From NCBI GenBank assembly GCA_021162305.1, contig JAGGYX010000152.1:1-18735 (forward strand): a stretch of DNA of 18,735 bases, in the 5' to 3' direction. Numbering within the stretch: the stretch's first letter is position 1; the number at the start of each line of letters is the position of its first letter. Below, piece by piece: positions 3,892 through 8,408 of this stretch. The translations under genes were made by a program, and so were the position numbers. The notes beneath the pieces are model-generated. The model had not been told where the DNA came from and searched no databases. It was given only the letters and a program-made list of their open reading frames with translations. The DNA is from Thermoplasmata archaeon (GTDB lineage Archaea; Thermoplasmatota; E2; UBA202; JdFR-43).

Positions 3892-6498
3892 TCAATTTTT
3901 ATCTTTAAAATCATTGGTCCGAGTAATTGCACAATCTTTTATAATTATTTCTTTTGTAACCTCGCTTTTTAATCCTTTCTCATTCCACACAGTCAGGGTA
4001 ACGTTGTATGTTCCTGCTTTTTTATAGACATGAACTGCATGATGTATCCACTTGCAACCATGTATTGTTCCATTATGATTTCCAATGGAATCATAGGCGA
4101 TGCTCCCATATCCTTCATTGAATTTCCACCATGCTATCAATCCATTCATTGTAACATTGCCAATATAATTTTGTTTTACTTCATCAATTTTCAGGTATCT
4201 ATCATATATTCTCACTTCCCTGATATATCCATCAAAACTACCTCCTATTCTCAATCTTTTTTTAACTGAAGGCAATATATTGCCTCCAGCAGATGACTTA
4301 ACCGATTTTCCATCCCAGTATAAATGAAAATTGCCATTGTTATAAGAAGCAAGAAAATGATGCCATGTGTTTTTCTCATATTTTATGGTTGAATAAGCTG
4401 CACGCCATTTCGTTACCTTAACAACAAAATAAATTCTTCCATTTTTGTATTTAAAACATGAAACATATCCGTCTTTATCCCCCCAGAAAAACCATCTGTG
4501 CGTAATACCATCATCGTATGAAAAAGAGGGATTTAACCACATTTCTATTGCAAAGCTTTTATTCATTTTTATTTCTGTTTCAACATAATCATTTTCTCCA
4601 AATTCAAGAGCATATGTTTCTCCTGTGCTTGTATTTCCATCTCCAAAATTCCATAATATTTTTGTAATTGGAGAATATGGTGACGAGGAATTGCTTATAA
4701 AATCTATTTTTTGATTTTTGCATGGGGTCGTTGAATTCATGTAAAAATCTGCTGTAGGTGGCACTCCATAGAATAGATATGTCATATCATGTATTTTTTC
4801 TGCATAAGGATTTTCGCAAAAACCATATATCACACCTATTCCATTTTTTTCCAAGAATTCAGAATCTTTGCATCTCTTCTCCATGAATTCTGACATCTTG
4901 TCCACCATATTTCTTCCATAAATTGGCCAGCCCGAAGAAGCTATGGTATAGATGCCTGTAACAGCGGAGAATATGCTTGCTTTCTGTGGATAAATTGCGG
5001 CTTTATCAAATGAATAATTTTCTTCTTTATATTTATCAATATTTTCTCTTATCCATTCAAAATTTTCAAAATCTCTTTCTCCTATCATCCTGTAAAAAGA
5101 AATATCTTTATGAACAGGTATGGCATATAGGGAAACCAAAACCAAAATAGCAGTTACAATTCCTGCTTTAAACAATTTTTCTGCATCTCGATATGGAATT
5201 TTTCTAATAAATTTTTCTAATAAATTTTTAAGATGTTCACCAATGGCAACAATTCCATATCCAGCAAGCAAAGTTACCATTAAATATGCAAATAGAAGGA
5301 AACGGTCACTCAATATCTGGATGCCATATTTATATTTTTGATATACAAAGAATATTGAAAAGAATAAAAAGAAAGATAACAAAATGCTTCTTTCCATCTT
5401 TTTTCCTTTTAAAACAGAGAGGAAGGCAGAAAATAAGAATAGAGCCCATACTATTTTTGTCAATTCATCAAATGAGAATCTTATTAATGGAAGCGATTGC
5501 TTGGATTCCTCAAACATGGCATCCAGACCAAGTTGCAGATAGGACATAAAAGGAGGAAATAGTAAATACAGCAACAGAAATGGAAAAAGACACATTCCTA
5601 TTAAAACCAGACCTTCTCTAAATTTCTTCTCGGTTATCTCTAAAATTCCATAAACTATTGCCACTATGGCGATGGCGCCCGCCGTCGGCAGGTGCATGAA
5701 AATTGAAAAAATGAAAAGGATTGGGAAGAAAGCATATTTTATCTTTGGCTCTGTATTCAAAAGCCATATTGAAAAAGCTGTTAAAAGAAGTCCTGTCGAG
5801 ACAGGAACAAGAAAGGATGGGCCAAGGTAACGAATTGTTGTTGGAATAAATGAAATGAGGAAGGCTGAAGCGAGCCCAAACTTTATGTTGCTTTTTTCTC
5901 CTATGCAGAATGCAGCAATTGCAACAAATACTGAAATTATGGAAGGCATTAAAACGAATATGCTTCTCAGGTCGGCGCCAGAAAGCCATTTAAATGATGA
6001 AAGAAAAACATGAAAGCCAAGCTCAACATCAAAAACTTTTCCATTTCCTGTAAATGGGTTTATGAAGGAAGTTCTGCCATTTTCCATGAAAGCCCGAGTT
6101 AAACCCCAGTGAACCCATTCATCTGCATGAAATGGAAGATAATAATTGTATTTTAAATGGGGAAAGAAAGTCATATAAAAAACAAATATAAGTATTGGAA
6201 CCAAAATCATGAGTTTCATGATGAGATTTTTTGATATTTTGAATTCAAATTTTACTCTCCTAAATAAAAATATTAAAACTATAATGAGATATATGAAATA
6301 CATGGCATAGAAGAAAAGAGAGCTAACTCTCATGAAAGATGCAAAAAGAAGTAAAAGAGCTGAGAAAATAAATATTCCAGATACAAAGCCAAATAAAACT
6401 CTTTCTACAAAATTTATTTTTTTGAAAATCAAAAGGCTTAGAAGATAACCGGGCAAAATGAATAAAAATAGACCCAATAGGATTCTTATTTCAAGCAT
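3892..6498 (-). CDS. GT-C-like membrane protein with LamG domain inserted in a PKD domain
   Basis: This 868-residue protein has two parts. Residues 1 to about 465 form a polytopic membrane region of roughly ten or more helices. A motif after the early helices, HADEWVHW (124-131), resembles the acidic catalytic loop of GT-C membrane glycosyltransferases. That suggests transfer of sugars from a lipid-linked donor, but this is inference. Residues about 466-868 should lie outside the cell. Within them a PKD domain starts near 581, reaches WNFGDGNTSTGE (616-627), and is interrupted by a LamG/concanavalin-like domain (628-817: [36 protein letters not shown]). It then resumes with HAVHVYKKAGTYNVTLTVW (820-838). 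The ATG overlaps the stop of the upstream DUF1616 gene by one base (TAATG), so the two form an operon. Likely role: glycosylation or glycan binding at the cell surface. Confidence 0.7.
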   Translation of the reverse strand: MLEIRILLGLFLFILPGYLLSLLIFKKINFVERVLFGFVSGIFIFSALLLLFASFMRVSSLFFYAMYFIYLIIVLIFLFRRVKFEFKISKNLIMKLMILVPILIFVFYMTFFPHLKYNYYLPFHADEWVHWGLTRAFMENGRTSFINPFTGNGKVFDVELGFHVFLSSFKWLSGADLRSIFVLMPSIISVFVAIAAFCIGEKSNIKFGLASAFLISFIPTTIRYLGPSFLVPVSTGLLLTAFSIWLLNTEPKIKYAFFPILFIFSIFMHLPTAGAIAIVAIVYGILEITEKKFREGLVLIGMCLFPFLLLYLLFPPFMSYLQLGLDAMFEESKQSLPLIRFSFDELTKIVWALFLFSAFLSVLKGKKMERSILLSFFLFFSIFFVYQKYKYGIQILSDRFLLFAYLMVTLLAGYGIVAIGEHLKNLLEKFIRKIPYRDAEKLFKAGIVTAILVLVSLYAIPVHKDISFYRMIGERDFENFEWIRENIDKYKEENYSFDKAAIYPQKASIFSAVTGIYTIASSGWPIYGRNMVDKMSEFMEKRCKDSEFLEKNGIGVIYGFCENPYAEKIHDMTYLFYGVPPTADFYMNSTTPCKNQKIDFISNSSSPYSPITKILWNFGDGNTSTGETYALEFGENDYVETEIKMNKSFAIEMWLNPSFSYDDGITHRWFFWGDKDGYVSCFKYKNGRIYFVVKVTKWRAAYSTIKYEKNTWHHFLASYNNGNFHLYWDGKSVKSSAGGNILPSVKKRLRIGGSFDGYIREVRIYDRYLKIDEVKQNYIGNVTMNGLIAWWKFNEGYGSIAYDSIGNHNGTIHGCKWIHHAVHVYKKAGTYNVTLTVWNEKGLKSEVTKEIIIKDCAITRTNDFKDKN
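4052..4182 (-). repeat. 131-base repeat, copy 1 (3' part of LamG in the GT-C-like gene)
   Basis: This block matches 6766-6896 at 128 of 131 positions. The differences are ATA/ATG (Ile/Met), ATC/ATT (silent) and CAT/TAT (His/Tyr). It encodes the end of the LamG module, from [10 protein letters not shown] through GNHNGTIHGC. Identity stops abruptly on both sides, and the C-terminal edge coincides with the return to PKD sequence. Confidence 0.93.
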
Positions 6499-8408
6499 TA
6501 TCTCACCTTAATCCATAAATGACACTCCCTATATGCATTTTCAATCCTTTCCACATCCATATATTCATGCCATTTTTCAAAATTCTGTGTTCTTCCTTTA
6601 AATAATAGAAAGGCGAGCTTGAATAGTCCTCTCCTGTCTATCTGGAAGGAATAATTGTATTCCCATTGCGGCTTCCATTCTTTCTCAATATTTACTTTTG
6701 TAGAATTGAGTCTAACTTCTATTTTATCCAAAAACCACATACGAGTTATATCTCCATAGTTCCAATTGCAACCATATATTGTTCCATTATGATTTCCAAT
6801 GGAATCATAGGCAATGCTCCCATATCCTTCATTGAATTTCCACCATGCCATCAATCCATTCATTGTAACATTGCCAATATAATTTTGTTTTACTTCTTGC
6901 TGTGATAAGACCCTATTATATATGCGAACATCTTTTATATATCCGAAAAAGAAACGGTATGCATTGCCTATGATGAATTTACTCTCATTTTTGCACATCT
7001 CTCCTTCCACCTTAATTGAATCTTTTAACTCTCCATCCACATAACATTTCTTTGTTTTATTATCAAATGTTATCGCTACATAATGAAATTCTCCATCTTT
7101 TGGAATAGAAGAATTAAACCATGTGTAAGACTGGCTTCCATTTTCCATTTTTGTTAAGTATCCAATCTGCAAACCATTTTTCAAGCCATTAAAAGCCATT
7201 AATGTTTCATTGGGCCAGCTTTTTCCAATTCCCCCTCTTCTTGCCAAAATGCTTATTTTGTCTACATAAAAATCAAGGTTTCCATACCAGTATAGCCTGA
7301 TTTTATATGATTTTGAGCCATCAAAAAACCATGTTGGGCTCTCTTTCCATTGATATGTGTTTGCTTCCCTGTATTCATTTGCTTTCATTTCATATTTCCA
7401 CTTCAATTTTTTTTCTTCATATATCTCTGCTCTCCATAGAGTTTGGTTGGAAACATTGTTGCTCACTTTGCTATACACTGTAACTGAAAAAGGACCGTTG
7501 AATCCCTTTGGAACTTTTATATTATTGCAGAGATAACCTGCTTTATCTCTTCCTTTGATTGCTCTTATAACAATTTTACCACTATCATTGTATATGTCTC
7601 CCGTCTCTTTATAATTTTCAGCCTCATATGTTTTGCCATATACAGTATCATCTTTCGAAGGCTTTACCCATGCTTCTATTGTTTTTAGGGGAGCAGAAAC
7701 ATTTGCTTTTACAAAATCATTGATTCCATCAAATTGAAGACATGCATCATATTTTATCAACCATGTTTCAACAGTATAATTAATGGGCTTTCCTTCATGA
7801 TTTGCTATGCCTATTATTACCTTTGCCGTCTCGTTGGTAGATATATTTGTTGGATAACCTTCTGCCTTTCCACCTGGTCCAAGAATATAAAATTCTGTGA
7901 ATTTCTCACCCTCATGCGGTGTTGCTATTATATAAATGAGCAAGAATATGGAGATGGCTATGGCAAAAAGAAGAGAGATGGTAAGAACTCTATCAACTTT
8001 GTCTCTGGGCAACTCCATTTCGAAAGAAATGCAAAATCTTTTTTCTGGCTCAATTTTATACCATCTGATGGTAGCTATAGAGGCTAAAACAAAAACAAGC
8101 AGGGAAAGAGATGTGGCTATGCTTGCAAGGCGGATGCCCCAGGGCGTGTAGTTTAAAATCAGTCCAACTAAAGGAACAATTGCTATGGAAAGACCAAAGC
8201 TTAGAGCAACTCTTTCTATTATATCTATTTCATCCTTAGTGGGAAAAAGAATAAGAATAAGTATGTAGCCCGGAATGAATATTACAAATGGTAATCCAAA
8301 AATTACTCTTATCGCTCCTTTTACATCAAATGCAATAAGGACTAAGAGAATTACTGTCCATGCAATCGATGTTATGACATCGATGGGCTTCCTGAAATAT
8401 ATACGCAT
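6498..8408 (-). CDS. DUF1616 membrane protein with nested LamG and CBM-like inserts
   Basis: This 636-residue membrane protein has four N-terminal helices in the first 120 residues and a fifth at about 141-162. Segments such as [43 protein letters not shown] and [15 protein letters not shown] are typical of DUF1616, an archaeal family of unknown function. The extracellular DUF1616 part runs to YTVETWLIK (211-219), is interrupted, and resumes at [15 protein letters not shown] (555-569) and [15 protein letters not shown]. The interruption (222-550) is a LamG-like domain ([38 protein letters not shown]). The LamG domain is itself split at 259-391 by a module beginning [10 protein letters not shown] that resembles carbohydrate-binding modules. 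It is the first gene of a two-gene operon with the GT-C-like gene. A TATA-like box 26 bases upstream suggests a leaderless mRNA. The domain names are family-level judgements made by eye. Confidence 0.75.
6766..6896 (-). repeat. 131-base repeat, copy 2 (3' part of LamG in the DUF1616 gene)
   Basis: This is the partner of 4052-4182, with 3 mismatches in 131 bases. The flanking LamG sequence is only distantly similar at the DNA level. The block ends where the encoded protein leaves the LamG module and returns to the DUF1616 domain. Confidence 0.93.

Follow-up and report, generated by a model that had tools for sequence, protein, structure and literature searches.

A LamG domain housing an uncatalogued inner domain, itself nested in a DUF1616 protein of a Thermoplasmata archaeon

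Insertions of one domain into another have been catalogued from ECOD, and that catalogue includes guests that are themselves hosts, among them an A1-B1-C-B2-A2 arrangement in ndhH and six levels in a cyanobacterial RNA polymerase (PMC13114784). Since nesting up to six levels is documented there, the topology itself is not new. Here we analyse a gene in 18,735 nucleotides of a Thermoplasmata archaeon (assembly GCA_021162305.1, contig JAGGYX010000152.1; the whole stretch is hereafter the window), whose product is a DUF1616 protein interrupted by a LamG domain that is in turn interrupted by a further segment. It shares with the catalogued nests the topology, the guest being itself a host, and differs from them in the families involved. 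It differs also in size: inserts in that catalogue are smaller than their hosts, with medians of 115 and 199 residues respectively, whereas here a LamG of about 201 residues, its own insert discounted, is lodged in a beta domain some 138 residues long and, in the neighbouring gene, in a PKD domain of some 85. The catalogue's main text does not use the words lectin, laminin or carbohydrate.

At the outer level the protein is like other members of DUF1616 (PF07760), such as Haloferax HVO_2173, by family, but is interrupted. The middle level is like the LamG_3/pentraxin fold (PF13385) in sequence and predicted fold, yet carries a 133-residue domain shortly after its IEAWVKP strand and sits inside another domain. 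From CBM6, CBM35 and CBM61, carbohydrate-binding modules (CBMs) with a galactose-binding-like jelly roll, the innermost level differs in having no CBM family among its Pfam matches and no PDB sequence match, model confidence being low. Pfam annotation here names DUF1616 and LamG only and leaves the inner domain nameless. A literature search over titles and abstract openings returned no description of a DUF1616/LamG/inner-domain nest. As far as these searches show, the novelty lies in a compound LamG module, an uncatalogued and probably extracellular inner domain, and a guest that exceeds its host beta domain in size.

The three-level nesting is real. A single gene of 636 residues occupies the minus strand (window 6498-8408, stop codon 6498-6500), and PF07760, with a curated cut-off of 31.6 bits, matches its intact product in two stretches at 263.3 bits: residues 13-219 on profile positions 2-235 and residues 564-634 (window 6507-6719) on positions 247-307 of 307, leaving 11 profile positions unmatched where 344 residues intervene. 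With the flanks joined, one stretch covers profile 2-307 at 283.5 bits, an above-cut-off match over the full profile length that places the protein in DUF1616. The middle level belongs likewise to PF13385 (cut-off 27.6 bits), for which the intact protein yields only profile 55-151, at residues 414-507 (70.6 bits for the whole protein); removal of residues 260-393 extends the match to profile 20-151 and raises its score to 78.1 bits, from 73.2 bits over 55-151 in the intact piece. Excision of the corresponding insert from two relatives raises the LamG score from 54.2 to 61.6 bits in P0008 (profile coverage 1-151) and from 33.6 to 44.3 bits in P0089 (coverage 2-150), and against a profile built from 17 plain LamGs all 11 nested LamGs gain, by 6.2 to 41.6 bits. 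On both the joined-flank scores and the excision gains, each host regains a continuous domain once its guest is removed.

Table 1. Features of the nested gene and of its neighbour, in window coordinates
Feature	Coordinates	Strand	Basis and remarks
DUF1616 part 1, residues 1-219	7752..8408	-	PF07760 profile 2-235; membrane helices predicted (about five), plus the opening strands of a presumed extracytoplasmic beta domain
LamG part 1, residues 220-259	7632..7751	-	joined LamG match starts at profile 20 = residue 243; fold match from residue 220
Innermost domain, residues 260-392 (133 residues), uncatalogued, beta-rich	7233..7631	-	profile of relatives; model
LamG part 2, residues 393-553	6750..7232	-	
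DUF1616 part 2, residues 554-636, last beta-domain strands	6501..6749	-	PF07760 profile 247-307 at 6507-6719
Adjacent gene: membrane protein, C-terminal PKD split by LamG (second nest)	3892..6498	-	PKD_4, LamG_3 and PKD matches
LamG tail patch, direct repeat D1, 136 bases, 97% identical	6761..6896 and 4047-4182	-	LamG tails of both neighbouring genes

A model of the protein, with a mean predicted local distance difference test (pLDDT) score of 81.7, contains a complete LamG/pentraxin fold, that is, an entire LamG_3/ConA-like jelly roll, spanning the inner segment. Helices are modelled at residues 9-26, 32-54, 63-85, 94-118 and 137-162, strands 209-227 and 548-567 run into and out of the LamG, and pLDDT values are 93-96 across the inner domain (261-390). 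The two ends of the LamG would lie close together, so that such a domain may be insertable in a host loop without breaking the host. A single-sequence fold of the whole protein (mean pLDDT 38) offers a weak hint only for the inner domain; Foldseek comparison with the PDB and with viral models ranked LamG-type folds at the top, with low TM-scores. The same three-part layout recurs in P0001-P0004, at 98, 69, 55 and 55% identity over residues 165-636, and between two species the inner segment is under purifying selection (non-synonymous divergence, dN, 0.26; synonymous divergence, dS, 0.88), so that neither a frameshift nor a chance reading accounts for it. The preliminary description, drawn up from the sequence alone, had proposed three levels of nesting, which the split profiles, the joined-flank matches and the model, a check it had suggested, all bear out; its limits for the inner segment, 7236-7634, hold to within a codon, each lying one codon from the 7233-7631 delimited with a profile of relatives that includes the window sequence as one row.

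Only 3 of 389 genomes of the phylum carry the inner domain, the identical three being found with profiles of 5 and of 11 rows, and it is therefore rare there. Twelve distinct copies were seen, comprising four in DUF1616 hosts (the window protein, P0002, P0003 and P0004), six in other hosts (P0008, labelled Heimdallarchaeota; P0086; P0087, Methanomethyliaceae; P0088; P0089, Bathyarchaeia; P0090) and two in G065, another genome of the Thermoplasmatota. LamG sequence lies on both sides of 11 of these copies and, for the twelfth, on the side that is readable. A search with the segment alone gave four hits and no free-standing copy within its limits on protein length; the protein searches restricted candidates by length, and longer or shorter carriers may escape them. 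In the other hosts the insert occupies the same place in LamG, the settings being a pilin-like protein, an immunoglobulin (Ig)-domain protein, a LamG array and a PKD domain; the pilin-type motif, for N-methylation, is that of P0088, and the Ig-like domain is in P0008. In G065 one locus (L045, contig 2) encodes PKD[LamG[inner domain]], an independent three-level nest with a different outer host, and another (L046, contig 12) a tandem array of LamGs, one with the inner domain and beside it LamGs that lack it. None of 24 candidate stretches from viral contigs encodes a relative of the inner domain, and P0088 had no plasmid match. A contig scan gave two loci, L038 and L039 (Croceivirga); the latter was dropped, with 27% identity over 70 residues on the strand opposite the long open reading frames there.

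The identity of the inner domain was sought through profiles and structures. Among 11 members no Pfam family exceeded its cut-off; eight families matched some member, none of them a CBM, the best being DUF7173 (E 0.013), with Bac_rhamnosid_N (0.089) and Endotoxin_C (0.099) each seen below cut-off in one member, in a search where HMMER filters remove most matches above E 0.1. There was no NCBIfam match, the inner domain had no sequence-profile match to CBM6 or CBM35, and searches of PDB sequences, whether by the inner-domain profile or by the complete protein, turned up only hits at E 0.18 or worse, treated as noise. Across 116 genomes of the phylum the CBM6 profile had one sub-cut-off match, and it had none in the L039 genome; the CBM35 profile matched nothing in those 116 genomes, nor in control genomes, and is thus uninformative. 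Likeness to CBMs comes from a low-confidence model only, in which it stood among unrelated beta-sandwiches. Carbohydrate binding by the inner domain is accordingly offered as a guess at the level of fold.

The loop of DUF1616 that receives the LamG is usually uninterrupted. DUF1616 is matched in 27 of 80 genomes of the class, being continuous at the break point in 17, interrupted in three (G000 and G004 by nested LamGs, G013 by a plain one) and represented by partial or weak matches in seven. A set of 100 proteins was gathered mainly with the window protein, and is thus biased towards inserted forms; both flanks could be placed in 46 (nine others, with a single flank, were left uncounted), of which 29 have a gap of at most 34 residues, four of these with a C-flank score below 20 bits, 15 carry LamG (four nested, including P0001, which is near-identical to the window protein, and 11 plain) and two carry a PKD array. 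In the latter two, P0021 and P0025, the array starts and stops in the middle of a domain, in the manner of a circular permutation. What fills the loop is exchangeable, with plain LamG, LamG with insert or a PKD array in different proteins.

A tree of LamGs (36 rows, 158 columns, with the insert omitted and the tail cut where its marker was found) joins nine nested LamGs, some hosted by DUF1616 and some by other proteins, in one clade (support 98/98). The LamG of G013, for which the near-identical P0007 stands in, sits elsewhere on a long branch, and a single clade of the 14 DUF1616-hosted LamGs is rejected by the approximately unbiased (AU) test, made after the tree had been seen (p 3.5e-5). 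LamGs have thus entered the loop repeatedly, or one has been exchanged for another; to judge by these sequences, several LamG lineages are present there. Insert and LamG core are correlated in their identities (r 0.88, or 0.82 without G065; 0 of 5000 permutations in each case), and this co-divergence, together with a nine-member clade that crosses hosts, makes LamG and insert appear to travel as a compound module. Taken with the occurrence of LamG plus insert in other hosts, it also makes the inner nesting look independent of the insertion into DUF1616. The best reading is a compound module that enters a permissive loop as a whole. This points to inserted domains being mobile in nested form, and a protein with three levels would not have to be built by three local steps. 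The preliminary description had stated that DUF1616 normally runs on at this point, as the genomes of the class confirm, and had envisaged repeated insertion of sugar-binding modules into one another. The nesting levels uphold half of that proposal; the occurrence of LamG plus insert in other hosts, the shared clade and the co-divergence speak against the remainder, and the epithet sugar-binding found no backing in sequence for the inner module, the profile comparison with carbohydrate-binding families having returned no CBM among the Pfam matches.

We consider it probable that the product is a membrane-anchored archaeal surface protein in which a loop of the DUF1616 beta domain displays the compound module of LamG and inner domain. 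Indirect evidence for an outside location comes from the roughly five modelled helices, from 16 sequons that lie from residue 165 onward, and from the Haloferax DUF1616 protein HVO_2173, which is listed among N-glycosylated membrane proteins (PMC8241124); in nanohaloarchaea, a role in cell contact is discussed for surface proteins with LamG and PKD (PMC10266531). These points, with the pilin motif of P0088 and the Ig-like domain of P0008, lead us to infer a surface recognition head, probably gripping sugars or other cells. LamG would have been spliced into the host loop without breaking the host, the stacked beta-sandwiches would keep one or two recognition surfaces clear of the membrane, and these surfaces may bind glycans or a glycosylated cell surface, whether the cell's own or that of another.

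Recombination between neighbours appears to have contributed. The gene adjacent to the nested one also carries LamG, and the 126-base LamG tails of the two are 96.8% identical here and 93.7% in L038, as against 74.6 and 76.2% for orthologous tails. LamG cores show the reverse, with 73% between orthologues and 59-60% between paralogues, and in both homogenised genomes the tract stops at the domain end. The homogenisation recurs in L038, where the sequence differs, an indication that gene conversion copies the LamG tails of these adjacent surface genes over each other both here and in L038; judged from sequence, the shared tail is undergoing concerted evolution in two species. More tentatively, and with chances that we would put somewhat short of even, a pre-assembled LamG[inner domain] cassette may spread among archaeal surface proteins and dock in beta-sandwich loops of DUF1616 and PKD domains, LamG-tail recombination then swapping the displayed heads so that the loops serve as exchange sites for adhesin heads. 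The source labels involved are Thermoplasmata, Bathyarchaeia, Methanomethyliaceae and Heimdallarchaeota, with possibly a bacterial-type pilin.

Several observations weigh against our main reading, the displayed compound module. The excision boundary is blurred: when the excision is slid along the window sequence, 13 of 174 placements do no worse than the true one, as do up to 37 of 180 in P0008, the range being 2-37 of 143-189 per sequence. The two nested LamGs of G065 fall outside the nine-member clade and none of 200 bootstrap trees unites all 11, although the AU test does not reject a single clade of the 11 (p 0.14). Next to the nine-member clade, at weak support (83/89), stand the plain, DUF1616-hosted LamG of P0006 and a LamG of P0090; the tree has short LamG cores, some long branches and, in a few rows, an incompletely trimmed tail. 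Tails are not homogenised in G013 (56.9% within the genome) or G019 (62.7%), and the resemblance behind carbohydrate binding by the inner domain is weak and derives from a low-confidence model. It is unlikely, all the same, that the inner segment is a large lobe grown out of LamG rather than an independent domain. That it was found only with LamG, the four hits of the segment-alone search all being among the copies described, and that it diverges in step with its LamG would fit such a lobe, but 133 residues with their own run of strands and high pLDDT would not, nor would a LamG fold complete without them, the G065 array in which neighbouring LamGs lack the segment, or the position of the segment-bearing G065 LamGs outside the main clade.

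Stepwise insertion within a DUF1616 gene, with plain LamG arriving first and the inner domain later, seems distinctly improbable. DUF1616-hosted nested LamGs share their well-supported clade with those of other hosts, the single DUF1616-hosted clade is rejected and the G013 LamG branches elsewhere. In its favour are the plain LamGs at the same loop, in the same family in G013 and in 11 surveyed proteins, and the weakly supported placement of plain P0006, one of these, next to the nested clade. We also doubt that the LamG modules lack a specific recognition role, being passengers that surface loops tolerate and recombination homogenises: tail patches are indeed homogenised within two genomes and DUF1616 does without an insert in most matching genomes of the class, but both insert and LamG are under purifying selection (dN/dS about 0.13-0.32 by segment, dS being partly saturated) and are retained in divergent hosts.

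The adjacent gene pairs with the nested one also in L038, G013 and G019. Over its residues 579-848, joining the PKD flanks raises the PKD_4 score from 50.9 to 64.2 bits. Its residues 1-579 form a multi-helix-looking membrane part without a Pfam match or a convincing PDB match, containing a motif, HADEWVHWG, which we take to recall GT-C glycosyltransferases. Elsewhere in the window, at 411-1655 on the minus strand, a secreted-looking protein without an NCBIfam match has repeated D-x-D-N-D-G-x-N-E motifs, presumably FG-GAP/VCBS-like; its gene stands beside what we take to be RNA polymerase and ribosomal protein genes.
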